A stretch of DNA of 64,000 nt from Methylobacter luteus IMV-B-3098 (lineage in GTDB: Bacteria > Pseudomonadota > Gammaproteobacteria > Methylococcales > Methylomonadaceae): positions 497,376-561,375 of the forward strand of contig NZ_KE386569.1 in NCBI RefSeq assembly GCF_000427625.1, given 5' to 3'. The notes under the pieces are model-generated. The model saw only the letters and a list, made by a program, of their open reading frames with translations. It did not search any database and was not told the origin of the DNA. Each line of letters begins with the position of its first letter. Position 1 is the stretch's first letter. This document shows, piece by piece, positions 27,016-59,231 of this stretch. The position numbers and the translations under genes are program-made.

Positions 27016-27771
27016 ATGGTATTAGATATGAAGCGAAACAAAATAATTGACGTTCCAAGTTTTGACAACAAACTTACAGAACACAAGCAATGCGTCGCTT
27101 TTCATGAAGCCGGGCATGCGGCGGCGATCTATTTGAACAACAAGGCTCAGAATCTTCCTCCGGTTTTCTTTCAAATCTTATTCAAAGATAGAAGCGGGTC
27201 TTCGGAAAACCATAAAAATACTTATCACATCATCCATGATGATTGTATTGCAAGAGTGGAAGGAGGACGGTTAATTCAATCATTACCTGACTCCATGGAT
27301 GCCTTCCTGGATAAATTGGTGGCACATGATGATGTCATGGTTCACGCAGTAGAAGACTATGTCAGCGCTTTCGAGGCGGACATCGTCAACTTGCTTGTGG
27401 GTCCCCTGGCCGAAGCCAAATATATCGCCGATACCGATAACGAGCTATTCAATCATCGTCTGGTCAATATAAGTGCATTGAAGAATTATGGCGGACGTTC
27501 CGATATCGCAACAGCTTATGAGTATTTACAGAGTTATTCGCCCAATAAACGGCAGCAAGATGAGAAACTGGATGAGTTGTTTAATGTAGCCTTTGACTTT
27601 GTAAACGATTATGAAAACTGGAAAGCGATTTCCAAACTGGCCAATCATATTATCGATTCTGACAAAGATACGATTAACTGCGAGGAGGTTATTGCTGTGC
27701 TTGAATCCACGGATATGAATGATTTTGCGGATGAGATATCTCAACCCGATCGCTATGTGAGATATGCTTGA
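27016..27771 (+). CDS. Stand-alone FtsH-type (M41) metallopeptidase domain
   Basis: This 251-aa protein has no AAA ATPase domain and no membrane segment. It carries the zinc motif HEAGH at residues 30-34 (CVAFHEAGHAAAIYL), as in FtsH, and later LLVGPLAEAKY and GGRSDIATAYEYL. The last resembles the FtsH stretch that supplies the third zinc ligand, here Asp163. All three expected ligands are thus present, so a protease is plausible. FtsH normally needs its ATPase ring to unfold substrates; this protein might act on unfolded substrates or work with the FtsH encoded 234 bases downstream. The C-terminal helical part (170-250) matches the FtsH peptidase helices in general pattern only. The function is inferred. 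Confidence 0.8.
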   Translation: MVLDMKRNKIIDVPSFDNKLTEHKQCVAFHEAGHAAAIYLNNKAQNLPPVFFQILFKDRSGSSENHKNTYHIIHDDCIARVEGGRLIQSLPDSMDAFLDKLVAHDDVMVHAVEDYVSAFEADIVNLLVGPLAEAKYIADTDNELFNHRLVNISALKNYGGRSDIATAYEYLQSYSPNKRQQDEKLDELFNVAFDFVNDYENWKAISKLANHIIDSDKDTINCEEVIAVLESTDMNDFADEISQPDRYVRYA

Positions 27772-28005
27772 ACTGGAGGGACTGCTTTGCTGGAGATAAG
27801 TTGTTGGATGGCAAAATTATCATGAGTTTCCAAAGTGGTTAAAAAGCTATTTTTTCTCTGCCAAGAAAGCGTTGCTGATGTGGAACCGGACTTATTAATA
27901 TTCTTCAGGTTCATGGATAGGCAGATATCTGTCTTTGGGCGACGGCCACTCCACACTAAAATTGTGTCGCCTTTAATACAACGTTCAGGTTGAAGGGGCA
28001 CTCCA

Positions 28006-29949
28006 ATGGATAAGCCGGAAGACAGTATTAAGAATCTATTTAGCAATCTATACAACTACCTGAAGAATTTGTTAATGACCGGTTCCGGTTCTAAGGAAAA
28101 ACCGGAGTTGGAGCTAAACAAACCGGCTGATGAAAAAACACCTTTCTCCAAACAGCGCAAAATCATTTACCTGGTGCTGTTATTCATCGTGTCATTGTCC
28201 GTGCTTAACAGTATCCAGGAAATCCAACGGGATGAAATCCCTTATAGCCAGTTTCTGAAGTACGTAAAAGAAAAAAAGGTTGAAAAGGCTGTTGTTACCG
28301 ACCGCTATATTACCGGCGTGATTAAATCGGACGATCCGAGTGAGCCGTCCAGGCCTTTCATGACCATTCCGTTGTTGCAAGATGATCTGGCTAATATGCT
28401 GGAACAAAATAACGTTGAATATGTGGTCAGAAGCGGAGAAAACTGGCTGACCAATATTCTGTTCAACTGGGTCATACCGATTTTAATATTCGTGTTTATC
28501 TGGTCCTGGATTATTCGCCGTACCACCGGCGGACAAAGAGAATTCCTGAATCTGGGCAATAAAATTCGTATCCATCAGGATACGCTGCCCAAAATCACCT
28601 TTGACGATGTGGCCGGCGCCGACAGTGCCAAACAGGAGCTTAAGGAATCCATCGATTTCCTGAAATCGCCGGAAAAAATTCAGCGATTGGGCGGGCGCAT
28701 GCCTAAAGGCTTATTGTTGGTAGGCGCGCCCGGTACCGGTAAAACGCTGCTGGCGCGAGCGGTTTCCGGCGAAGCAGGCGTACCTTTCTTTAATATCAGC
28801 GGTTCCGAATTCATCGAACTGTTTGTCGGGGTAGGCGCCGCCCGAGTTCGAGATCTGTTCGAACAGGCTCGCAACAAAGCGCCCTGCATTATCTTTATCG
28901 ACGAGCTCGATGCCATCGGCCGGTCGCGTAGCGGGCCTGTGATGATCGGCGGTCATGATGAACGTGAACAGACCTTGAACCAGTTGCTGACTGAAATGGA
29001 CGGCTTTGATACGTCGGTCGGCGTAGTGGTTATGGCGGCAACCAACCGTCCGGAAATTCTGGATAAAGCGCTGCTGCGCGCCGGACGGTTCGATCGCCAG
29101 ATTATTATCGATAAACCGGACTTGAAGGATCGTATCGAGATTCTCAAGCTGCATACCAAGCCGATGATCCTGTCTGAAAATATAGATATAACAGTGATTG
29201 CCAAACGCACGCCGGGACTGGTTGGCGCCGACCTTGCCAATATCGCCAATGAAGCAGCAATCATAGCGACGCGGGTTGGCCACAACAAAGTCGAAATGGA
29301 AGATTTCGAAGCGGCCATAGATCGCATACTGGCCGGCCCTGAAAAGAAAAATCGCGCCTTGAGTCCCGACGAAAAGCGCCGGGTCGCCTACCATGAGGCG
29401 GGGCACGCAATGGTTGCCGAGCATGTGCCGACCGGGCAGCCGGTGCATAAAATTTCGATTATCCCCCGCGGCGTATCAGCCCTGGGCTTTACGCTGCAAT
29501 TGCCCGTCGAGGAAAAGTTTCTATCGACTGAAAATGAGCTCAAGGACCAGTTAGCCATTTTAATGGGTGGACGCATTGCTGAAGAATTCACCTTTGGAAC
29601 CATTTCGACCGGCGCCCAGAATGACCTGGAAAAAGCCAGCGAAATTGCACGTAATATGGTTTGCAGTCTGGGCATGAGCAAAAAACTGGGGCCGTTGACT
29701 TACGGCAAACGGCAACAGCTGCAATTTTTGGAAACAGAGACACCGGAAATCCGCAATTACAGTGACGAGACTGCCCGCCTTATTGATACCGAAGTCATGG
29801 CGTTGATTGAGGAGGCTGAAACGCGTGCCCGTGGAGTAATTACTGCCAACAGAGAGGTACTGGACAAACTGGCGAATTTATTACAAGAAAAAGAAGTCGT
29901 TAACAGAGAAGAAATTACAGACCTACTTAAAAGCGAGATGAAACAGTGA
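28006..29949 (+). CDS. ftsH: ATP-dependent zinc metalloprotease FtsH (accessory paralogue)
   Basis: This 647-aa membrane protease has transmembrane segments near residues 53-68 and 150-166, an AAA domain with Walker A GAPGTGKT (240-247), Walker [12 protein letters not shown] and arginine-finger region [10 protein letters not shown], and an M41 domain with HEAGH (463-467) and Asp540 in [10 protein letters not shown]. The pore motif [11 protein letters not shown] is present. FtsH degrades membrane and regulatory proteins. An N-terminal extension of about 50 charged residues before the first membrane segment is unusual for the housekeeping enzyme, and the neighbours are other proteases rather than rrmJ/folP, so this is probably a second, stress-linked copy. 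AAGGGGC precedes the ATG. It overlaps the HtpX-like gene. Confidence 0.95.
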
Positions 29950-30926
29950 ATATGCAAGCAATTCTGGAGCAAAAACAACTCAATCATCACCGCCTGAGCA
30001 ATTTTTTTCAGTCGCTGATTTTATTCGTTTCAATGCTATTCCTAGTCGTTCTTATCAGTTATTTGTTATTGGGTATGGAAGGGTTGAAGTGGGCCGTGAC
30101 TTTTGGCGCAGTCCTGCTGCTCATCGGCATCAAGTGCACGCCGGGAATGATTCTTAAACTGTATAAGGCACAACCGGTTGTTCATGATGAAATTCCCGGC
30201 TTGCAGAAGCTGGTCTCGGAACTGGCGGATCATGCCAAACTCGCGGCCGTGCCGCAACTGTACTATGTGCCCAGTCGCACCATGAATGCATTTACTGCAG
30301 GCAACCACGACAAATCCTGTATCGTATTAACTGATGGCCTGCTGCGTACGTTGAACCGGCGTGAACTCACCGGGGTTCTGGCTCACGAAATCACCCATAT
30401 CGGCAATAATGACAGCCAGGTAATGAGCATTGCCGATATGCTCAGCCGAATGACCAGTTTGTTGTCTACTTTCGGCCAATTATTGTTGCTGATCAATCTG
30501 CCGATGTTTCTCCTGGACAGTGTTATAGTGCCCTGGTCGGTAATCACAATGATGCTCTTCGCTCCGATTATTAATAGCCTTTTGCAGCTTGCTTTGTCGA
30601 AAACACGCGAGTTTGATGCGGATACGAATGCCGTTTACCTGACAGGCGATCCGGACGGATTGGCGAGCGCTTTATTCAAAATGGAATATTACGGCGCAGG
30701 CTTATTCGAATGGTTGTTCCTGGCCGGGCATGGCACACCCGAACCGTCTCTGCTGAGAACGCATCCTACCACTGAGGAACGGATGAAACGTCTAAAATCA
30801 CATTTCAAAATAAGCAAAAATCCTCTCAATGATGCTTCCGATGATTCCAAACTGCTTACTATTCCTTTGCATATACAAAGGGTTCAACGCAGACCACGCT
30901 GGAGAATAGGCGGTATGTGGTATTGA
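29946..30926 (+). CDS. htpX: HtpX-like M48 membrane metalloprotease
   Basis: This 326-aa protein has two N-terminal hydrophobic segments (about 23-43 and 47-66), then an M48 domain with the zinc motif HEITH (147-151) in LTGVLAHEITHIGNND, two further hydrophobic stretches (about 178-200) and the downstream Glu ligand in KTREFDADTNAVYL. HPTTEERMKRL near the end is typical of HtpX-type proteins. HtpX acts with FtsH in inner-membrane protein quality control. Translation probably starts at GTG 29946, whose last bases overlap the FtsH stop (GTGA), with an appropriately spaced GCGAG; an ATG six bases later is the alternative. The coupling to ftsH supports a joint role. It is shorter in the linker than classical HtpX and may be a paralogue. 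Confidence 0.9.
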   Translation: MNMQAILEQKQLNHHRLSNFFQSLILFVSMLFLVVLISYLLLGMEGLKWAVTFGAVLLLIGIKCTPGMILKLYKAQPVVHDEIPGLQKLVSELADHAKLAAVPQLYYVPSRTMNAFTAGNHDKSCIVLTDGLLRTLNRRELTGVLAHEITHIGNNDSQVMSIADMLSRMTSLLSTFGQLLLLINLPMFLLDSVIVPWSVITMMLFAPIINSLLQLALSKTREFDADTNAVYLTGDPDGLASALFKMEYYGAGLFEWLFLAGHGTPEPSLLRTHPTTEERMKRLKSHFKISKNPLNDASDDSKLLTIPLHIQRVQRRPRWRIGGMWY

Positions 30927-39564: not shown

Positions 39565-40872
39565 ATGCGTCGTACCGACTTTGCAGTTCCCCGCAATTCG
39601 GCAATACCGTATCAGGCCCTTTCGAGCGAAGTGCTGGCTCAGTACCGGGCCGTCAGACGTGAAACGGAACAGTTGTGTGAGCCGCTCGCCATCGAGGATT
39701 ATGGCATCCAGGCCATGCCCGATGTCAGCCCGCCGAAATGGCATCTGGCTCATACGGCCTGGTTTTTCGAGGCCTTTCTGCTGGTCCCTTTTCTGCCCGG
39801 GTACCAGGTTTTCTATCCCCGCTTCGCCTACCTGTTCAATTCCTATTATCAAACCGTCGGCAGTTTTTTCCCGCGCCCGCAACGCGGTTTGCTGTCCAGA
39901 CCGACTGTCGAGGAAGTCTGCCGCTATCGCGCCCATGTCGATAGCGCGATGGCGGAGCTGGTAGCCATCGCTGACGCTCCCCAACGCGACCGGATCATTT
40001 TCCGTACCGTGCTGGGACTGCACCACGAGCAGCAGCACCAGGAACTGCTGCTGACCGACATCAAATACAACTTCGCGTTCAATCCGTTGCGCCCGGCTTA
40101 TCGGCCAGCGCCCGACCATGCCGGGAAAGCGCCGGTTCCGCTGCAATGGCTGGCCTATGACGGCGGTCTGCGCGAGATCGGTTTCTCGGGCACGGATTTC
40201 GCTTACGATAACGAGATGCCACGGCACAAGGTCTATCTGGAAGATTTTCAGCTGGCCTCGCGCCTCGTGACGAACGGCGAGTTTCTGGCTTTTATCGAGG
40301 ATGACGGCTATCGGCGCGCCGACCTGTGGCTCTCCGACGGCTGGGCGGCCGTGCAGCAAAGAAACTGGCAGGCGCCGCTGTACTGGGAAAACATCGACGG
40401 CCAATGGTGGATCATGACGCTGGCCGGGCTCAGGCGCCTGGACCGGAACGAGCCGGTCTGCCATGTCAGTTTTTACGAGGCCGATGCCTACGCGCGCTGG
40501 TGCGGCAAACGCTTGCCGACAGAGGCGGAGTGGGAGGTCGCAGCGCAGGACCGCGAGGTCCACGGCAATCTGCGCGAAGCCGGTATATTGCATCCCGTGG
40601 CCGCTGAATCCGGCGCAGGAAACGGGCCGGTTCAGTTGTTCGGCGATGTCTGGGAATGGACGCAAAGCCCCTACCGGCCTTATCCCGGATTTCAGCCGCT
40701 GAACGGCTCGCTGGGCGAGTACAACGGCAAATTCATGTGCAATCAGCTGGTGCTGCGCGGCGGTTCCTGCGTGACGCCGCAGTCGCACATCGCGGCCACT
40801 TACCGCAATTTCTTTTACCCTGCCGACCGCTGGCAGTTCATGGGCATAAGGCTGGCCGCCGATGCGGACTGA
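39565..40872 (+). CDS. egtB: Ergothioneine biosynthesis sulfoxide synthase EgtB
   Basis: This 435-aa protein has an N-terminal DinB_2 domain and a C-terminal formylglycine-generating-enzyme (FGE/sulfatase-modifying) domain. Iron ligands expected for EgtB are visible: the His of WHLAHTAWFFE (His60/His63) and HHEQQHQE (His154 and His158). The C-terminal domain has GFSGTDFAYDNEMPRHKV, RLPTEAEWEVAA and VWEWTQSPY. EgtB joins trimethylhistidine (hercynine) to a sulfur donor using iron and oxygen. No egtA or egtC is nearby, so the version that uses cysteine directly or another thiol is possible; that is not decidable here. AAGGAG precedes the ATG. It overlaps egtD by 11 bases. Confidence 0.95.
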   Translation: MRRTDFAVPRNSAIPYQALSSEVLAQYRAVRRETEQLCEPLAIEDYGIQAMPDVSPPKWHLAHTAWFFEAFLLVPFLPGYQVFYPRFAYLFNSYYQTVGSFFPRPQRGLLSRPTVEEVCRYRAHVDSAMAELVAIADAPQRDRIIFRTVLGLHHEQQHQELLLTDIKYNFAFNPLRPAYRPAPDHAGKAPVPLQWLAYDGGLREIGFSGTDFAYDNEMPRHKVYLEDFQLASRLVTNGEFLAFIEDDGYRRADLWLSDGWAAVQQRNWQAPLYWENIDGQWWIMTLAGLRRLDRNEPVCHVSFYEADAYARWCGKRLPTEAEWEVAAQDREVHGNLREAGILHPVAAESGAGNGPVQLFGDVWEWTQSPYRPYPGFQPLNGSLGEYNGKFMCNQLVLRGGSCVTPQSHIAATYRNFFYPADRWQFMGIRLAADAD

Positions 40873-41839
40873 ACTGGTCGAACCGCGTCTGCGCTTTTCC
40901 GACCTGAAGCCGCCGCCGGCCGATTTCCGGCGCGAGGTCGTCGAAGGGCTGCGGCGTCCGCGGAAGGCCCTGTCGCCGAAGTTTTTCTATGATCCCGAAG
41001 GCTGCCGGCTGTTCGAGGCGATCTGCGATTTACCCGAGTATTATCTGACCCGTACCGAAGTGGGCATTCTGACCGAACACGCGGACAGCATTGCCCGAAC
41101 GCTGGGGCAGGGCGGCGCCCTGATTGAGCTGGGCAGCGGCAACAGCCGCAAGGTCCGGCTGTTGCTGGAGGCGTTGAAGCCTGCCGTTTACATCCCGGTC
41201 GACATTGCCAGAGAGCATCTGCTCACTGCCAGTCGCGCGCTGGCAGCCGATTGCCCGTGGCTGGACATTCATGCAGCCTGCCTGGATTATTCGCAGCGTT
41301 TCGCGTTGCCGTTTTTGTCGGATGCGCAAAGGAAGATCGTTTTCTTTCCGGGTTCCAGTATCGGCAACTTCGAGCCGGCGGCGGCGGAAAACCTGTTGCG
41401 CAGCGTAGCACAGTGCGTGCAGCCCGACGGCGGCCTGCTGATCGGCTTCGATCTGAAAAAGGATGCCGCTATTTTGAATGCGGCCTACAACGACAGCGCT
41501 GGCGTGACGGCCCAGTTCAATCTGAACCTGCTGCGCTACATTAATGCCAGAGCGGCGGCAAATTTCGACCTTGATCGATTTCACCACCAAGCTTTCTACA
41601 ATGAGCTGCGAGGACGCATCGAAATGCATTTGTGCAGCGAATACCGTCAGCAGGTCATCGTGGCCGGCGAGACGTTTAATTTTCTGGATGGTGAAACAAT
41701 CCATACCGAGAGTTCCTATAAATACGGGATCGAGGAATTCCAGACGCTGGCCCATAACGCCGGATTCGAACCGGACCGCTGCTGGTGCGATCGGGACAGC
41801 CTGTTTTGCGTGCACTACTTTGCCGTTAGAGCCTCTTAA
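40862..41839 (+). CDS. egtD: L-histidine N-alpha-methyltransferase EgtD
   Basis: This 325-aa SAM-dependent methyltransferase shows SPKFFYDPEGCRLFEAICDLPEYY broken over residues 39-62, the SAM motif IELGSGNSRKVRLLLEAL, the FFPGSSIGNFEP motif and GFDLKKD, with C-terminal ETIHTESSYKYGIEEF, all diagnostic of EgtD. It trimethylates histidine to hercynine, the first step of ergothioneine synthesis, before EgtB acts. The start at 40862 lies inside the end of egtB (the egtB TGA is at 40870-40872), so translation is coupled. Both genes are notably GC-rich. Full-length and intact. Confidence 0.96.
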   Translation: MRTELVEPRLRFSDLKPPPADFRREVVEGLRRPRKALSPKFFYDPEGCRLFEAICDLPEYYLTRTEVGILTEHADSIARTLGQGGALIELGSGNSRKVRLLLEALKPAVYIPVDIAREHLLTASRALAADCPWLDIHAACLDYSQRFALPFLSDAQRKIVFFPGSSIGNFEPAAAENLLRSVAQCVQPDGGLLIGFDLKKDAAILNAAYNDSAGVTAQFNLNLLRYINARAAANFDLDRFHHQAFYNELRGRIEMHLCSEYRQQVIVAGETFNFLDGETIHTESSYKYGIEEFQTLAHNAGFEPDRCWCDRDSLFCVHYFAVRAS

Positions 41840-43313: not shown

Positions 43314-45068
43314 TCATTCACCCAGAAAATCCCCACGTTGATGCTGCCACATGGCGTGGTACTTGCCTTTTTGGGCGAGCAACTGTTCGTGCGTGCCCTG
43401 TTCGATGATTTTGCCTTTGTCCAGCACGACGATGCGGTCCATGTTCAATATCGTGGACAGCCGGTGCGCGATCACGATGGCGGTCTTGTCCTTGATCAGC
43501 TCGAAAATGGCGACCTGGATCTGTTTTTCGGTCAGCGAATCGAGCGCACTGGTGGCTTCGTCCAGCACGACGATCGGCGCATCCTCGAGAAACGCCCGGG
43601 CAATGGCGATGCGCTGTTTTTCGCCGCCGGACAGCTTGACGCCGCGCTCGCCGACCAGCGTGTCGAATCCTTCGGACAATTTTTCTATGAACTCCAGGCT
43701 GCGCGATTTCCGGGCTGCATCGACCAGCCGCGCTTCCGGGATGTCATCGCCCAGCGTGATATTGTCGCGCACCGAGCGATGGAACAGCTCCGGCTGTTGC
43801 GGCACCATGGAGATCTGCTGGCGCAGGGCTGACAGCGTAAAAGCTTTGGCCGGCAGGCCGTCGAAAGACAGGCTGCCCTGTTGCGGGTCGAGAAAGCGAA
43901 ACAGCAGTTTGGTCAACGATGATTTGCCGGAACCGGAAGAGCCGACCAGGGCGACCTTCTCGCCGGCCTTGATGGACAGCGAAAAGTGCTCGAACAGCTT
44001 CGGCTGGCTGGGGTTCGACGGGTCATAGCTGAAGCTGATGTTGTCAAAGCGGATTGCGCCTCTCGTGATGTTCAGCGGTCTGGCATCACTGGCATCGACT
44101 TCCAGGTCCTGCTGCCTGAAAACATCGGCCATTTCGGTAGCATCGGCCAGCGCCGTGAAAAAATTGCGGAAATTGCGCCCGAATTCCCACAGCCGTTGAA
44201 TCAGCATGAGCATGATCGATTGAAACAGCACGAACTCGCCGACCTGGAAGTTGCCGCCCTGCCATTTCTGGATCATCAGATAAACCAGCAGCAGCTCTAT
44301 GCCGAACGTCATCAAGCCCTGCACGGCGAAGGAAATGAACATCAGCAGCCAGGCGATCTTCTTCCTGCGGTAGACGAAATCCGAAGCCTGGTTGATCTGA
44401 GCCTGCTCCTTGGCTTCCAGGGCAAAGCTTTTGACGATGAAGATATTGCTGATGGCGTCGGAATAAGCGCCTCCGACTTTCGAATCAGCCTTGGCCACGG
44501 CCTGGTCGAAGCGCAGTTTCCAGATCGAGTAGGCGATGTTCCAGGTCACGAACAGAACCACCCAGACCAAAAAATAAACCGCGAACCGCGGCTGCTGCCG
44601 GTAGAAAATCACGAACGAAATAATGACCGCGACGATATTCATGAAGAACTGGAACAGGAACCAGTCCATGATGATTTCGAAAGACCGCGAGAAACGATTG
44701 GCCTGCTTGATTAGGCTGCCTGAAAAACTGTTCTCGAAAAAGGCGTATTTCTGTTTTTTCAGCACCTCGAAGCAGCGTTTTTCCAGCAGATTGACGCCGC
44801 CGCCATCGAGCGGCACGATCGCGACTTCCAGCAGGCGCCACGACAGCCAGACGCCGGCGTAGATCATGGCGATCGTTTTCAGGTTGTCCAGCAAAGAGGC
44901 CAGGGTCGCGTCGGAGTAGGGCGCCGCCAGCCCGTTGGCGATGTTTTTATAATAGAGGGGGGCCGATAAATCCAGCACGACGGCGCAGGTCAAAGCGGAT
45001 AGGGCCAGCAGGAAATACCATTTTTTCTGCCAGACAACCCGGCCGTACTCTTTGAATATAATGTCCAT
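43314..45068 (-). CDS. ABC exporter (fused permease-ATPase, MsbA/LmrA type)
   Basis: This 584-aa half-transporter has six predicted membrane segments in residues 1-310 and one nucleotide-binding domain (about 340-575) with Walker A VGSSGSGKSS, the Q loop QQPELF, signature LSGGEKQR, Walker B IVVLDEATSALD and the H-loop IAHRLST. It must dimerise to function, exporting a lipid, peptide or drug from the cytoplasm. The substrate is unknown; the membrane region lacks features allowing subclassification. It stands alone on the minus strand with repeat-rich DNA upstream and a transposase remnant downstream. The gene is GC-rich. No strong ribosome binding site before the ATG. Confidence 0.92.
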   Translation of the reverse strand: MDIIFKEYGRVVWQKKWYFLLALSALTCAVVLDLSAPLYYKNIANGLAAPYSDATLASLLDNLKTIAMIYAGVWLSWRLLEVAIVPLDGGGVNLLEKRCFEVLKKQKYAFFENSFSGSLIKQANRFSRSFEIIMDWFLFQFFMNIVAVIISFVIFYRQQPRFAVYFLVWVVLFVTWNIAYSIWKLRFDQAVAKADSKVGGAYSDAISNIFIVKSFALEAKEQAQINQASDFVYRRKKIAWLLMFISFAVQGLMTFGIELLLVYLMIQKWQGGNFQVGEFVLFQSIMLMLIQRLWEFGRNFRNFFTALADATEMADVFRQQDLEVDASDARPLNITRGAIRFDNISFSYDPSNPSQPKLFEHFSLSIKAGEKVALVGSSGSGKSSLTKLLFRFLDPQQGSLSFDGLPAKAFTLSALRQQISMVPQQPELFHRSVRDNITLGDDIPEARLVDAARKSRSLEFIEKLSEGFDTLVGERGVKLSGGEKQRIAIARAFLEDAPIVVLDEATSALDSLTEKQIQVAIFELIKDKTAIVIAHRLSTILNMDRIVVLDKGKIIEQGTHEQLLAQKGKYHAMWQHQRGDFLGE

Positions 45069-45651: not shown

Positions 45652-46920
45652 ATGAACATAAATAATTTTCGCGATATGGGCTCGGGCGGTACCGGGGGCA
45701 TCATCAATCGTATCCAGACGCTGTTCATCGGCCTGTTGAGGATATGGACGATCCCTATTGTCCTGCTGTTGAGTCTTGCCTCCGGGTTTACGACTTACTA
45801 CGGCATGTCCCATTTCATCACGCCATGGATCGCGCTGATCATTACCGTGGCGGTTCAGTCCATCATCGTCATCTGTTCGCTCGAAATTGCCGGCATCCAC
45901 TGGAAAGCCAACCGGATTCGCTATATCAGCGTGCTAGCTTCTCTTTTAGTCGCCATCATCGCCTCGGTTTCATTTTCTTATTTTCAGTTTTACGAAATAT
46001 CCGAAAAGGAAAATCTGCACATCAACCGACTGAATCAGGTAAGGGAGGAGGTTAATAATTACCTGAACAAAATCCTGGCCGTAAAAACCGGGATTCTCGA
46101 ACAGCAGCGCGCGCAGTTGGAGGTGGCGTCGAAAGAAGTCTCGCAAGCCTATTTCGGCACGCACCCGCAGATTGCCGTCGAGTACAGAAACCAGGTCGGT
46201 GAGGGACCGTTCTGGAAACGCTATAACGATCTTTACCAGGCTAAAACGCAGCAATTGGCCCGGCTCGAACAGGGTTTCCAGCAGCTGGACGACGACATGC
46301 GCAAGTTGCAGGCCGGCCTCAGGCAGGTGAGCCTCGGGCAGGATGAAAGCAGCGCCTATCAGACGGTGCTGTCGAGCCTCAACGACGTACAGATCAGATT
46401 CAACCAGCTGGCGACAGGTTTAGGCCATGCCGTGCCCGAAGTGCCCGTTGTGATGTCCTATGCGCAGTTTGTGCAAGGCGTGCAGCCGTCGTTCCTGATG
46501 TGGAAAGACTTTTCTCCATTTGCGTTTATCTGCGCATCCATGATCGAATTTTTTACGGTGCTGCTTTCGTACCGGCTGGAGATGACGGCGCCCGGACCTT
46601 TGACCGAACAGGAGCAGGAGCTGATTTTCGAGTGCCTCAGGCAATTCACCGAGTTTCGGATCAATGAAAACGACGAGCTTGAAATGGTGATCGAGAAAAG
46701 CGAGCTGGAACGGGCCAGGCGCTATTCCGACTGGTCGAGAATGTTTGCCGTCGGATTATTGCTGAGCCGCGGTTTTCTGCGCAAGGTCGATGCCCGAACT
46801 GTCGAATTCGCGCCCAACCTGTATCCGTTGATCGCTCAGCGCATGGGGGATAAAATCCGCGCCATCAAGGCTGAATCCCCCGTTAAACTGGAAGCATTGC
46901 AGCAGGCCGGCCATGAATAA
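45652..46920 (+). CDS. Polytopic membrane protein with cytoplasmic or periplasmic coiled coil, unknown
   Basis: This 422-aa protein belongs to no family I recognise. Three hydrophobic segments (about 32-52, 57-80 and 92-112) are followed by a Gln/Glu-rich coiled coil of about 150 residues (118-260), a fourth segment (about 286-308, with FAFICASMIEFFTVLLSY), and a soluble C-terminal domain of about 110 residues with SRMFAVGLLLSRGFLRKV, which looks like a small winged-helix-like fold, uncertain. AAGGTGTGAGG precedes the ATG. The stop lies eight bases inside the next gene, so the two are co-translated and probably function together. The membrane layout resembles anchors of structural complexes rather than transporters. 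Confidence 0.75.
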   Translation: MNINNFRDMGSGGTGGIINRIQTLFIGLLRIWTIPIVLLLSLASGFTTYYGMSHFITPWIALIITVAVQSIIVICSLEIAGIHWKANRIRYISVLASLLVAIIASVSFSYFQFYEISEKENLHINRLNQVREEVNNYLNKILAVKTGILEQQRAQLEVASKEVSQAYFGTHPQIAVEYRNQVGEGPFWKRYNDLYQAKTQQLARLEQGFQQLDDDMRKLQAGLRQVSLGQDESSAYQTVLSSLNDVQIRFNQLATGLGHAVPEVPVVMSYAQFVQGVQPSFLMWKDFSPFAFICASMIEFFTVLLSYRLEMTAPGPLTEQEQELIFECLRQFTEFRINENDELEMVIEKSELERARRYSDWSRMFAVGLLLSRGFLRKVDARTVEFAPNLYPLIAQRMGDKIRAIKAESPVKLEALQQAGHE

Positions 46921-48277
46921 CGATAACACTGATCTGGAAAAATGGCTGGGCGGATTTGGTTTCCACGAGGAAACGATCGGGCAGGAAAACTGGGACCCCG
47001 GCTTTGAAGCTGAGCGGCGCATCGTTCATAGCCGGCTCGGCTTTTACAGCAAGCTGTTCAGCCGGCCGGAGAAATTCGTCAAACGCTTTTATCATACCGT
47101 CTATCCGCTCACAATAGCCGATTGGTCCTTAACGGCCAATAACAAGCTCTATGATGGTTTCTGCACGATAACGACGCGGCTCGATATTCGCTTTCAGGCC
47201 TCGGTCAAGTACGCTACCGCCAACTGGGAGTTGTTGCCCGATATCAACCGGCATATCAAAGCGGCCTATGAAGGCCTGGTCAGGGATGTTATCGACAGGG
47301 AACTATTAAATCTGGACGACGGCGCCTGGATACAATCAGGCCTGAAGGATACGGAACAGAAAATAGCCCACGCCGTCAACGAGTTGCTGATGGTGCGCAA
47401 CATCCAATGCCGGACTTTTTGCACACTGAAGCCTGCCTTCGAAGAATTTCCTGACGATGCGGGACTGGACGGCCGGTTTGCGCAGGAATCCGTTTATCTG
47501 AGCGTGGTTAAAAAGAATTTCGAATTCCGTGAAAAACAGGCGCAGGAGAAGCAGCGCCAGGAGCAGGAACTGGAAAACCAGAAATTGCTGCATGAACAAC
47601 TGCAATTGCAGCAACTGAACAGGGAAGAGGAACTGCGAAGGCTGAAAGCCATTCAGGATGCTGAAAACCAGCAATTGCTTCTAAAGGACGAAGAAAAATT
47701 ACAAGCCGAGCGATTTGACATGGAAAAGCGCCTGCATGCCGAAAAAATCAAACACGAAAACGCGTTGAAAGAGATGGCATGGCGGGCTGAAGTCGAGGAA
47801 CAGGAAAAACGGCAGGCCCTGCATCGCGAAACCGAGCAGCAAAACCAGCTCAATCAGCTGGCTCACGGGGCGCGTTTAAAGGAAACCGCGCTGGAGGCCG
47901 AGATCAGGGAATTTGAAAAGCAGCAGGCGCGCTGGAACGAGGCCAAGGAAAAGATGCATATCGAAAGCCTTAAACAGCAGCAGCGCCTGCAACAAATGGA
48001 TCTGGAGGCTGAACTCATGGCTCAGGAACGTCAGCAGCGGGAAAGAAGCAAAGTGCAGCAGAAACTGCAGACGGACAAAATTGAGTACGAGTCGCGTCTG
48101 AAAGGCATGCAGCTGGAAGCCGAAATCAAGGAACAGCAAAAACGTTTCGAAGCCACTGAAAAATCGGACGAGTATCTACGCCGCGAAATTGAATTGCTGA
48201 TCCTGGAAAAACAGCGCGCCGAACTGATGCTGGCTGTCAATAAACCGGCCGACAAGCTTCTGGAATCTCCCGATTAA
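46913..48277 (+). CDS. SPFH/band-7-like protein with long coiled coil, unknown
   Basis: This 454-aa protein has an N-terminal part (about 60-190) with a beta-rich stretch (FCTITTRLDIRFQASVKY) then helices with AAYEGLVRDVIDRELLNLDD and QKIAHAVNELLMVRNIQCRTF, which follows the order of secondary structure in SPFH/band-7 (stomatin/flotillin) domains. From about 205 to 430 it is a continuous Gln/Glu/Lys/Arg-rich coiled coil (repeated LEAEI..., QQ, EEEL patterns). No membrane segment is present, so it would be recruited by the membrane protein encoded just upstream, whose end it overlaps by eight bases. Together they could form a scaffold at the inner membrane. SPFH assignment is my inference from pattern, not a confirmed hit. 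A terminator follows at 48626. Confidence 0.72.
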   Translation: MNNDNTDLEKWLGGFGFHEETIGQENWDPGFEAERRIVHSRLGFYSKLFSRPEKFVKRFYHTVYPLTIADWSLTANNKLYDGFCTITTRLDIRFQASVKYATANWELLPDINRHIKAAYEGLVRDVIDRELLNLDDGAWIQSGLKDTEQKIAHAVNELLMVRNIQCRTFCTLKPAFEEFPDDAGLDGRFAQESVYLSVVKKNFEFREKQAQEKQRQEQELENQKLLHEQLQLQQLNREEELRRLKAIQDAENQQLLLKDEEKLQAERFDMEKRLHAEKIKHENALKEMAWRAEVEEQEKRQALHRETEQQNQLNQLAHGARLKETALEAEIREFEKQQARWNEAKEKMHIESLKQQQRLQQMDLEAELMAQERQQRERSKVQQKLQTDKIEYESRLKGMQLEAEIKEQQKRFEATEKSDEYLRREIELLILEKQRAELMLAVNKPADKLLESPD

Positions 48278-48672: not shown

Positions 48673-48713
48673 GTCATATCACCTATTTTTAAATAAAAAA
48701 TAGGTGATATGAC
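48673..48713. repeat. Perfect 18-bp inverted repeat
   Basis: The arms GTCATATCACCTATTTTT (48673-48690) and its exact complement (48696-48713) enclose five bases. It is AT-rich and lies between a terminator and the FecI gene region. It could be a protein-binding palindrome or a terminator for either strand; not a known repeat in this window. Confidence 0.85.
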
Positions 48714-49004: not shown

Positions 49005-49508
49005 ATGACGACTGAATTAGTTGCCAATGATGCGCTGGCTCAGCTTTATCGCGAGCATCATTCCTGGCTGCTCGGCTGGCTGCAGAAGCGGGCACAGTGC
49101 CGCTTGCAGGCCGAGGATCATGCCCACGATACATTCATGCGTGTTATCGCCTCAAACGGTGTTCACGACATACGCGAGCCGCGTGCCTACTTAATCACCA
49201 TCGCCAAAGGCTTGCTCATTAATCATTGGCGCAAATCGGCGATAGAACAGGCCTATTTGGAGAGAATCGCCGCCTATCCCGAAGCCTTGATGCCATCGCC
49301 TGAAGAGAATGCGATTATCCTGGCGACGCTTCAGGAAATGGATGATCTGCTCAATCAACTGCCGACCAAGGTGCGCAAGGCATTTTTAATGGCACAATTG
49401 GATGGCCTGACCTATGTCGAAATTGGCAAGCAACTGGGCGTAACGGATCGCATGGTCAAAAAATACATGTCCAGCGCCATGCTCCATCTTCTGACCACGG
49501 AATTTTAA
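49005..49508 (+). CDS. fecI: ECF sigma factor, FecI-like
   Basis: This 167-aa protein has sigma region 2 (residues 8-80; LYREHHSWLLGWLQKRAQ, AEDHAHDTFMRVI, EPRAYLITIAKGLLINHWR) and region 4 (about 105-160; LLNQLPTKVRKAFLMAQLDGLTYVEIGKQLGVTDR). The HSWLLGWLQ and AHDTFMR forms are those of FecI, which is activated by FecR when a TonB receptor binds its siderophore. It is followed after only six bases by fecR and then by a receptor gene with a signalling domain, the classical order. Its own gene has no recognised iron box; a Fur site search of 48714-49004 would be useful. Confidence 0.94.
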   Translation: MTTELVANDALAQLYREHHSWLLGWLQKRAQCRLQAEDHAHDTFMRVIASNGVHDIREPRAYLITIAKGLLINHWRKSAIEQAYLERIAAYPEALMPSPEENAIILATLQEMDDLLNQLPTKVRKAFLMAQLDGLTYVEIGKQLGVTDRMVKKYMSSAMLHLLTTEF

Positions 49509-56942: not shown

Positions 56943-59231
56943 ATGGAAATCAGCTATCAATTGCAGGGATCCGATTTGGAAAACTTGCGCCGGCATTTGC
57001 TGCTGCGCCTGCGTCAGCAGACTGGCGGAATGGCCCAGCGTATAGGAATCGGGGTGTTTATTGGTGTCATTGTTTCGTTTGAATTACGTTTGCATGAACG
57101 AGAGAACGGAAATTGGTACCCCTATTTAATGGGGCTATTGCCCGTTGTGCTGTTTTTCGCTTCGGTGGTTTGGCGGCGGATCTGGCAACAATCCAAATAC
57201 GGGCAGGGCTGGCTGGAACAGTATGTGGGGAACTACCTGCTCAATCTGACGCCTGCCGGCATTTCCTACAAGGCGCCGAATGGAGGCATGAGCTTTTATG
57301 CCTGGCCCGAAATACTTGGATTCGAAGTCTCTGAATCCGATCTGTATTTATACCTGCGCCGCGATGTGGCCATTCCCATTCCTCGCCTGGCATTGGGAGA
57401 CGAGGCCAATGTCGATAATTTTGCCGAAAAGGTGCGTGATTTATGGTCGTCGCATCCCGACAACGCCGAAAAAACACTGCCGACACTACCTTCGCCCCGG
57501 AATTTGGTTTCGGCCGAGGCACTGGTTACGAACCTGCTGCAGGCGGCTCGCATCGTGTTCTTCACCGATTATGACCCGCGTTCTTTCCGCGTCTCTTTTG
57601 GCATATTCCTGCAATTGCTGCTGTTGAACCTGCTGTGCATCGGCATCGTGGACTACATCGACGCAAGGCCGGCTCCGGAATTCAATCTTTACGGGTTGAG
57701 TAAATTCGGCACCGCCACTTTATTGATGCTAGGTGGCGTCGCCTGCATCAGCAATTTGCTGATGCAACGCGCGAATATGCTGCGGCTGCTGGTCATCATT
57801 TCCGCGTCGGAAATCGTTATCCATCTAATCTACTTTTCGAGTTGGCTGGCCGCCGAACGTTGGTTGCAGGATTTTCCGAAAGTGCTGTGGGGATTATACA
57901 TAGCGGCTGTAGTCTGGACATTGGCAGCTGTGTTCAGAATCATACGGCAGCTGTATTGTCAGCCAGCGCCTTCCGCACTACTTTTGATCAGTATTTATGC
58001 CTTTTTTACCCTATCCTTGGCTGGATTATTACCGTCGCATCGTTTGTATTACACTTCGGAAGCCGACGATGGTTCCGCGGAGTACGAGGCGGCAAGCCAA
58101 TTGGATGAGGAAGACTTGTTTTATCGGCAACCGGGGCTGGTCGGTGATGAATTGGGGGCGTTGCAAACTCAGCGTAAAGGAAAGACAGACCTTTATTTTG
58201 TTGGTTTTGCCGGGCAAGCGGAAGAAAGGGTATTTTTCAATGACGTCAGCTTTGCCAGAAATTTGCTGGACCGCCGCTTTAACACTGCTGGCCGCTCTCT
58301 GGTGCTGGTGAATAATACCGATACCGTGTACAGCGCACCGCTCGCCAACCGGCACAACCTGGAGGCCGTTTTGCAGGGAATTGCTCAGCGCATGGATAAG
58401 AACGAAGATGTGCTGTTCCTTTATCTTAGTTCCCATGGCGCCAAGGATCACAGACTGTCTGTCTCGTTCTGGCCGTTAAGCCTGAACGATCTGACAGCCG
58501 AGAATTTAAAGGCCATGCTGGACAATGCCGGCATACGCAACCGGATAATCGTGGTCTCGGCCTGTTATTCGGGCGGTTTTCTGGATGTGCTGAAAGACGA
58601 TAACACTCTGGTAATGACCGCCTCCAGCCGCGACCATGTCTCATACGGCTGCGGCGATTTTACCCGCTATACCTACTTCGCCGAGTCCTACTTCGTCAAG
58701 GCGCTTGCGACCGGCGATTCATTTATTACGGCCTTCGACCAGGCGCGCCATCTGATACAAGAACGGGAGCAAAGCGAGGGTCTGGATGCGTCCGGCCCGC
58801 AAATCGATGTGGGACGCAATATCGCCAGGATCTTGCGGAATTTGGAAGTCGCCCCCGGTAATACAGTGGGACCTGTCCAGCAGGGATTGCTCGAAGCAGG
58901 CTTATCCTTCGACCAGCGCGTCCAGCAAGGCCGGCGCTTCGAGCAGGACGCGACGGCGCTGGAATATGTAAAAAAGAACGTGTTTCCGGCCATAAACGCC
59001 GTCCTGTCCAAGTCGTTAACGGATTGTCTCAAACAACCCGATGCAAGTACGGAAAAATTCATCCTGGTCGCAAATATCATGCAGGACGGCGGGATTGAAA
59101 ATGTAGACTATAAACCTGCAACTAATACGGCACAGTGTTACGGCAATTCCTTACGCATATTAAGCTTGCCCCCGCTCCCGAACGAGTTAAGCATCCTGCC
59201 GGTTTTTTTCGATATGACATTGCCCGGCTAA
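56943..59231 (+). CDS. Membrane protein with YcxB-like domain and C13 (legumain/caspase-like) peptidase domain
   Basis: This 762-aa protein begins with a YcxB-like region: two membrane segments (about 36-52 and 60-77) and then GISYKAPNGGMSFYAWPEILGFEV (about 100-123, split here by residues) with LYLRRDVAIPIPR, the pattern of bacterial YcxB proteins. A polytopic middle (about 215-365) has five or more hydrophobic segments. The C-terminal part (about 400-690) is a peptidase C13-type domain: catalytic His498 in LYLSSHGAKDH and Cys541 in VVSACYSGGF, with SVSFWPLSL between them and MTASSRDHVSYG after. C13/caspase-like peptidases cut after specific residues; the substrate is unknown. Flanking genes give no clue. 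All catalytic positions are present. Confidence 0.88.
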   Translation: MEISYQLQGSDLENLRRHLLLRLRQQTGGMAQRIGIGVFIGVIVSFELRLHERENGNWYPYLMGLLPVVLFFASVVWRRIWQQSKYGQGWLEQYVGNYLLNLTPAGISYKAPNGGMSFYAWPEILGFEVSESDLYLYLRRDVAIPIPRLALGDEANVDNFAEKVRDLWSSHPDNAEKTLPTLPSPRNLVSAEALVTNLLQAARIVFFTDYDPRSFRVSFGIFLQLLLLNLLCIGIVDYIDARPAPEFNLYGLSKFGTATLLMLGGVACISNLLMQRANMLRLLVIISASEIVIHLIYFSSWLAAERWLQDFPKVLWGLYIAAVVWTLAAVFRIIRQLYCQPAPSALLLISIYAFFTLSLAGLLPSHRLYYTSEADDGSAEYEAASQLDEEDLFYRQPGLVGDELGALQTQRKGKTDLYFVGFAGQAEERVFFNDVSFARNLLDRRFNTAGRSLVLVNNTDTVYSAPLANRHNLEAVLQGIAQRMDKNEDVLFLYLSSHGAKDHRLSVSFWPLSLNDLTAENLKAMLDNAGIRNRIIVVSACYSGGFLDVLKDDNTLVMTASSRDHVSYGCGDFTRYTYFAESYFVKALATGDSFITAFDQARHLIQEREQSEGLDASGPQIDVGRNIARILRNLEVAPGNTVGPVQQGLLEAGLSFDQRVQQGRRFEQDATALEYVKKNVFPAINAVLSKSLTDCLKQPDASTEKFILVANIMQDGGIENVDYKPATNTAQCYGNSLRILSLPPLPNELSILPVFFDMTLPG

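Follow-up and report, generated by a model that had tools for sequence, protein, structure and literature searches.

In a 64,000-nt stretch of the genome of Methylobacter luteus IMV-B-3098 (contig NZ_KE386569.1, positions 497,376 to 561,375 of the forward strand; hereafter the window), two overlapping genes, which we call A and B, form one unit. Gene A encodes a polytopic membrane protein, and B encodes a soluble protein which, according to its predicted structure, combines an SPFH-like domain with a long helix. Membranes are organised by SPFH proteins in every domain of life; for members that lack an anchor of their own, the way to the membrane is, to our knowledge, documented in few cases. 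By analogy to known systems, we lean slightly towards the view that A anchors a ring of the soluble SPFH protein B at the inner membrane and that the complex serves as an envelope scaffold; the envelope role is the weakest step of this proposal and the cellular role is putative. The pair represents an apparently undescribed, strictly linked and probably anchor-scaffold unit, which occurs widely across one order of methane oxidisers. Two Methylomarinovum species, one with and one without the pair, provide a natural comparison for a direct test of its role.

Genes A and B form one unit

The two open reading frames (ORFs) overlap by 8 nt (ATGAATAA), and the stop codon of A (46918-46920) sits within the start of B. 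Both the ORFs and the overlap agree with the preliminary description, a set of remarks made from the letters of this DNA. To see the arrangement in relatives, we used 81 near loci (80 of the 98 relatives of A and the window's own locus) and 20 distant loci, taken from among the order's 103 genomes with A. The two genes are adjacent in 78 of the 81 near loci, the contig ending first in the other three (L025, L044 and L053), and thus in every near locus holding both; they are also adjacent in 20 of 20 distant loci. With start codons picked by script, an overlap is present in 76/78 near and 19/20 distant loci, and 8 nt is its commonest length (50/78 and 11/20, respectively). It had been proposed that this overlap implies a fixed stoichiometry. 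This does not follow, since the overlap is compatible with translational coupling only.

The gene upstream of A encodes an ABC transporter and is divergent (start at 45068, opposite strand), while the next same-strand ORF of at least 150 aa after B, which encodes a sigma-70-family factor, begins only at 49005. The A-B pair therefore looks like its own transcription unit. Between B and this ORF, at 48673-48713, a perfect 18-bp inverted repeat with a T-rich tail was noticed as a terminator candidate, although such sites are about as frequent in shuffled sequences. A non-coding feature at the locus was considered and rejected: the Rfam scan gave only two matches, both far under the gathering scores, and the numbers of promoter-like sites (3, shuffle mean 3.7) and terminator-like sites (7, shuffle mean 5.5) are close to those in shuffles.

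The pair was then followed over the order, taken to be Methylococcales, by profile searches for A and B in 151 genomes, in which 44 genera are sampled. A was found in 103 genomes from 37 genera and B in 104 genomes. All 103 A-bearing genomes have B, and the additional B (G237) begins at base 3 of its contig. A-bearing genomes fall in the families f1 to f6, and the f7 and f8 genomes among those listed have neither gene. Laboratory methanotrophs with the pair include Methylomonas sp. LW13 (L031) and Methylobacter tundripaludum SV96 (L080). A single-sequence search detected B in 131 of 201 family genomes. In the window's genome (5.03 Mb), both genes are single-copy. The distances between A proteins covary with those between B proteins with r 0.85, while the best of 999 permutations reached 0.18; this covariation, which also reflects species history, is as expected from co-inheritance. 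The A and B trees have 30 well-supported splits in common, and 6 of 53 well-supported A splits clash with a B split.

Beyond the order, the pair was nearly absent. In a sample of 369 genomes of the class, four gave matches, three of which belong to the order and the fourth of which is a 41-residue fragment; in a sample of 349 genomes of the phylum, the two matches were the window's genome and a 39-residue fragment. The 39 genomes searched from the genus of G809, a genome outside the class with a pmoA-like gene, gave no match; the set had no positive control, which leaves this negative with little weight, and pmoA was checked in G809 only. Searches for relatives of A in IMG/VR (two peptide patterns and tblastn) and in plasmids (tblastn, A only) came back empty.

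The surroundings of the pair are variable, without a broadly conserved neighbour: the commonest flanking cluster was present in 14 of the 81 near loci, some of which are short. As a separate observation, a block resembling rpoE-rseA-rseB-degP-cysM is located upstream of the pair in L017 and roughly twelve similar, Methylomonas-like loci. The corresponding clusters occur in 12, 12, 12, 14 and 10 near loci, respectively, with gene names given by reading of the sequences.

Protein B has an SPFH-like fold by structure prediction

The AlphaFold2 (AF2) model of the single B chain contains a beta-rich domain (residues 36-176), one helix of about the proposed 220 residues (192-412) and, poorly predicted, a short helix at the C-terminus. 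When the model was searched against the PDB with Foldseek, ranks 1 to 26 were entries of SPFH proteins, assuming for multi-protein entries that the match is to the SPFH chain. Of the 74 matches, six reach E <= 0.001, and rank 26 has E 0.19. The best E values were obtained with PHB1/2 (2.1e-5), flotillin (1.1e-4) and stomatin (3.9e-4), and the matches also include HflKC (in an FtsH-HflKC entry) and QmcA-YbbJ. Among them are isolated stomatin SPFH domains, with a target TM-score up to 0.65. Since these domains carry no long coil, the match of B is not driven by its coil. Thus, according to the model, the N-terminal domain of B folds like SPFH. A resemblance of this domain to the band-7 fold had been one of the points on which the earlier description was to stand or fall, and the outcome was in favour of SPFH.

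At the level of sequence, this similarity disappears. We found no Band_7 (PF01145) match in 50 near (E <= 1) or five distant (E <= 0.1) B proteins, while the same profile finds five other proteins in the window's genome, which are canonical Band_7 proteins. Neither Pfam nor NCBIfam matches the window's B at E <= 1; the Pfam scan of the 50 near B proteins gave scattered weak matches (best E 0.023) and that of the five distant ones gave none. The SPFH similarity of B is therefore structural only. B also contains no membrane segment and no N-terminal hydrophobic anchor, its highest 19-residue Kyte-Doolittle mean being 0.61, in line with what had been read from its translation.

The length of B ranges from 328 to 560 aa over 97 sequences, with a variable coil built of repeats. 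The repeat period is 37 residues in the window's protein, 51 in L118 and 58-59 in L057 and L103. In many B proteins of distant families, the profile matches the SPFH part and, after the variable coil, a separate C-terminal element (positions about 389-438). In family f6 only (L105, L106 and L108), we noticed a hydrophobic, possibly amphipathic B C-terminus (SWLDRLAHLTGRLLFFYRNRG and alike), which is possibly a membrane-binding tip.

Protein A is a membrane protein with a conserved hairpin tip and C-terminal domain

Hydropathy revealed four hydrophobic segments in A (Table 1), the number that had been counted previously, and AF2 predicts its proposed own helical segment as helices from 114 to 168 and at 186-255 with a break at 169-185. 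The 52 relatives aligned to A are 59-86% identical to it. Among the 80 loci retained from 98 relatives, the nearest are from Methylobacter sp. BlB1 (92%) and M. marinus A45 (86%). One relative with 64% identity (L077) is on a contig titled Bacteroidetes bacterium MAG and is probably misbinned.

The topology of A was deduced from loop charges. Averaged over 53 sequences, the number of K+R residues is 4.1 in the N-terminal tail, 2.8 (minimum 2) in the loop between the transmembrane segments TM2 and TM3, and 0.02 in the TM1-TM2 loop. Because of the positive-inside rule, we infer that the segment 114-285 is periplasmic and the C-terminal domain is cytoplasmic. The AF2 model of the single A chain is best over residues 121-270 (block pLDDT 81-93), and the C-terminal domain has a pLDDT of about 60-73 over residues 321-400. 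Conservation, given as the mean majority residue per region over 97 sequences, is concentrated in the TMs (TM1-3 0.84, TM4 0.83), the C-terminal domain (0.85) and the tip of the hairpin (0.71, compared to 0.52-0.56 in its stem).

No Pfam or NCBIfam family reaches its cut-off for the window's A. Together with the corresponding result for B, this supports the original impression that neither protein is in a recognised family. Two candidate memberships of A were rejected. DUF4407 (PF14362) matches 29 of 53 A relatives at E <= 1 (best E 2.5e-6), but the bit scores of 18.1 for the window's A and 26.6 for one distant A, the latter over the coil, are below the cut-off of 31.3. The SLATT_4 match of A has 17.2 bits, with a cut-off of 55. 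A sequence search of solved structures gave no significant relative (best E 0.036 for A and 0.68 for B, mostly over coils), and a search of PHROGs gave a single weak match of A (E 0.054) to a family without assigned function.

Table 1. Positions of genes A and B and of their parts in the window.
Feature	Positions	Strand	Basis
Gene A, 422-aa polytopic inner-membrane protein, proposed anchor	45652-46920	+	ORF; relatives; order-wide profile
A, TM1-TM3 (residues 21-47, 54-84, 88-113)	45712-45990	+	Hydropathy; loop charges; conservation; AF2
A, helical segment 114-285, putative periplasmic hairpin	45991-46506	+	AF2; membrane side from positive-inside rule
A, conserved hairpin tip (residues 161-195), AYFGTH..VGEGPFW	46132-46236	+	Conservation above that of the flanking stem (0.56, 0.52)
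A, TM4 (residues 287-307)	46510-46572	+	Hydropathy
A, C-terminal winged-helix-like domain (residues 309-398), putative cytoplasmic docking domain	46576-46845	+	Conservation; AF2; Foldseek weak
A stop/B start overlap, 8 nt	46913-46920	+	Sequence; near and distant loci
Gene B, 454-aa soluble SPFH-fold coiled-coil protein	46913-48277	+	ORF; AF2; Foldseek; order-wide profile
B, SPFH-like domain (residues 26-180)	46988-47452	+	AF2 block pLDDT 76-92 over 31-170; Foldseek PDB
B, continuous helix 192-412, coil with 37-residue repeat	47486-48148	+	AF2; self-similarity period 37
B, C-terminal helix (residues 422-439), within conserved C-terminal element	48176-48229	+	AF2, pLDDT about 60; profile

A putative anchored scaffold

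Based on these observations, A and B could constitute one two-component inner-membrane scaffold. Since B lacks the N-terminal hydrophobic stretch of classic SPFH proteins and A is encoded together with it, A would supply the membrane part. According to the proposed topology, the N-terminus of A, its TM2-TM3 loop and its winged-helix-like C-terminal domain would face the cytoplasm, while the helical hairpin, with about 55 rising residues corresponding to roughly 8 nm and with the conserved tip, would face the periplasm. By analogy to other SPFH proteins, B may form a ring or cage, which would be held at the membrane by the C-terminal domain of A and whose height could be set by the coil length of B. 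It is tempting to speculate that the complex is an accessory envelope scaffold, which connects an SPFH ring in the cytoplasm, across the membrane, with the periplasm or the cell wall and may stabilise or organise its membrane patch.

Several results weigh against this proposal. An hhalign comparison of B to the five canonical SPFH proteins encoded in this genome was insignificant (E 0.13, 0.7 in global mode), and the whole-chain AF2 models have a low predicted TM-score (pTM; 0.45 for A and 0.44 for B). The TM region of A is poorly predicted (pLDDT about 45-58). The stretch just after TM4 is acidic (mean K+R 1.1, D+E 4.5) and gives no help to the positive-inside reading there. The Foldseek matches of the C-terminal domain of A to the winged helices of CRP, IclR and MarR are weak (best E 0.16, none with E <= 0.001). 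Further, 48 of the 151 genomes of the order are without A. Upstream promoter motifs, scored in 96 of 101 loci in comparison to shuffles, did not include a sigma-E-like promoter (strict 0/96, shuffle mean 0.14; loose 1/96, shuffle mean 1.5). In the same loci, sigma-54 core motifs were found in 4/96 (shuffle mean 1.0, maximum 5) and sigma-70 motifs in 16/96 (shuffle mean 9.5, maximum 19), none of which is decisive.

A bolder version of the anchored scaffold is an order-specific, envelope-spanning SPFH machine with a cage of tunable height and an anchor hairpin touching the cell wall, which would mechanically couple the organisation of the membrane on its cytoplasmic side to peptidoglycan. We know of no SPFH system with such an architecture. 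A cell-wall hint, for this version as for the scaffold in general, is a gene for a Peptidase_M74 (MepA) murein endopeptidase, which comes next after B, in the same orientation, in 8 of the 11 fetched loci of family f4 (for example L102:3431-4267); the peptidase family was checked on two of the eight, and in three of them the longest ORF overlaps B. On the other side, the MepA link is limited to this family, two of the eight loci are from one genus, and in the window's genome mepA is about 474 kb away from the pair. We put this version forward as a speculation that is rather unlikely to hold in full.

Alternative explanations

The distribution of the pair, which is widespread in the order (37/44 sampled genera) and nearly absent from the class and phylum samples, would also suit a factor for the biogenesis or organisation of intracytoplasmic membranes (ICM) or of particulate methane monooxygenase (pMMO) arrays in type I methanotrophs. 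In favour of this, ICM biogenesis is stated to be unknown in PMC9445010, and the pair was not detected in the above genus of G809, the genome with a pmoA-like gene outside the class (a set without positive control). Two lines of evidence speak against it. Within the order, PF02461 (pmoA) was detected in 122 of 151 genomes, where the misses may partly stem from fragmented assemblies. In a cross-table compiled by hand from the profile results, like the PspA tallies below, the pmoA-positive genomes comprise 86 with and 36 without A, and the pmoA-negative ones 17 with and 12 without A. Hence, there is no clear link between the pair and pmoA within the order. In addition, Methylomarinovum tepidoasis IN45 (G205) has the pair, while Methylomarinovum caldicuralii IT-9 (G219) matches neither the A nor the B profile. 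The IN45 locus (L104) aligns to IT-9 on both sides of the pair: L104 1177-4154 corresponds to IT-9 823598-820621, and L104 6591-7161 to IT-9 820581-820011, up to the edge of the fetched piece. The intervening 2.44 kb or so holding A and B (L104 4154-6591) are replaced by about 40 bp in IT-9 (G219:C1 820581-820621). This clean two-gene absence is most simply explained by loss in IT-9, because the pair is present in related families. According to PMC10950024, both strains have pMMO genes, IN45 has type I ICM, and a partly disordered ICM arrangement, similar in the two, is reported for both (earlier for IT-9). Thus, the pair is not required for methanotrophy or for ICM, although it may have a quantitative role there. 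The empty site and the missing pmoA link together weaken a required ICM or pMMO role, and we consider this explanation improbable.

About as improbable, in our opinion, is a dedicated chaperone or protease-adaptor cage similar to HflKC or QmcA, with A as the receptor for a substrate or protease. The FtsH-HflKC and QmcA-YbbJ entries among the fold matches of B would fit, and FtsH-type and M48 proteases are encoded about 15-18 kb upstream in the window. However, these genes do not adjoin the pair, and the sole protease-like recurrent neighbour that we noticed is the degP-like gene in 14/81 loci, named from its sequence, besides the cell-wall enzyme MepA in f4. The resemblance of the C-terminal domain of A to winged helices could alternatively make A a signalling protein or transcription factor in the membrane, which binds DNA by its winged helix and is regulated by B. 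In the sequence, hydrophobic residues prevail in the candidate recognition helix (about 360-372), residues 308-422 are net acidic (17 K+R versus 20 D+E), and the fold matches remain above E 0.001; such a function is in our view quite doubtful. A membrane-stress complex recruiting PspA in the manner of YdjGHI would follow the same logic of a soluble SPFH protein with operon-encoded membrane proteins (PMC8581546), and some pair-bearing genomes carry PspA-family matches. Yet a search of the window's genome for PspA (PF04012) gave nothing at E <= 0.001, and no pspA was recognised among the recurrent neighbours of the pair in the 81 near loci. Over the order, PspA exceeds the curated cut-off in 19/103 A-bearing and 12/48 A-lacking genomes, and reaches at least 100 bits in 5/103 and 6/48, respectively. 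A recruiter of PspA is accordingly very unlikely. Lowest of all we rank an anti-phage or toxin-like, SLATT-like effector, to which the sub-threshold SLATT_4 match would point and which we hardly believe in. Against it stand the lack of a PADLOC match (E <= 0.1), of an IMG/VR relative in the pattern-seeded search and of a plasmid relative of A, and the covariation of A and B distances as under joint inheritance. The anchored scaffold remains the reading which we prefer.

Other features of the window

Elsewhere in the window, a gene at 56943-59231 codes for 762 aa that include a C13/caspase-like peptidase domain (PF01650, E 1.1e-26). The region 27016-30926 contains a gene for a 251-aa protein (no Pfam match at E <= 1e-5), followed by the FtsH-type and M48 protease genes, which overlap each other by 4 bases. 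At 39565-41839, an FGE-sulfatase/DinB_2 gene adjoins a gene for a histidine-specific methyltransferase; we take these two to resemble the ergothioneine genes egtB and egtD.

Comparison with known systems

HflK and HflC have an N-terminal transmembrane helix. The same applies to prohibitins, according to PMC12624060. Both cages are among the best fold matches of B, for which a ring architecture is presumed, but B is without a transmembrane helix, and the five canonical Band_7 proteins are encoded separately in the genome. To DUF4407 (PF14362), relatives of A show some similarity, with the distant-A match located over the coil and the bit scores given above under the cut-off.

The flotillin/stomatin-NfeD systems (SPFH1, 2 and 5) share with the pair the SPFH fold and coiled coil, and the organisation as a two-gene unit with a membrane partner. 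As described in PMC2636767, a hydrophobic stretch at the N-terminus is a feature of classic SPFH proteins, and most NfeD proteins have 140-150 aa with three hydrophobic stretches and a beta domain. In contrast, B lacks such a stretch and is outside PF01145, and A has 422 aa and four TMs with a 170-residue segment between TM3 and TM4. NfeD gave no match in the window's A and none for A relatives among the matches listed (25 of 113 families). A partner other than NfeD had been anticipated, and in size and topology A is indeed unlike NfeD.

The closest precedent is YdjI of B. subtilis, an SPFH protein which is likely soluble and is localised to the membrane by the operon-encoded YdjG/YdjH (PMC8581546). 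The pair resembles the pspA-ydjGHI operon in that a soluble SPFH protein (B) is encoded with a membrane partner (A). It differs in that pspA is neither adjacent nor matched elsewhere in the window's genome, in having one membrane partner gene instead of two, and in the 220-residue helix of B. The preliminary description had regarded the pair as its best candidate for an undescribed system. We recognised no description of it in the open-licence literature of PubMed Central, the partial coverage of which makes this weak evidence of absence, and with respect to YdjI-YdjG/H the claim has to be softened. In summary, the localisation of a probably soluble SPFH protein through membrane proteins of its own operon is known already, while what appears new is that B is SPFH by predicted fold but outside the Band_7 sequence family, that A belongs to no curated family, and that their partnership is neither that with NfeD nor that with YdjGH.

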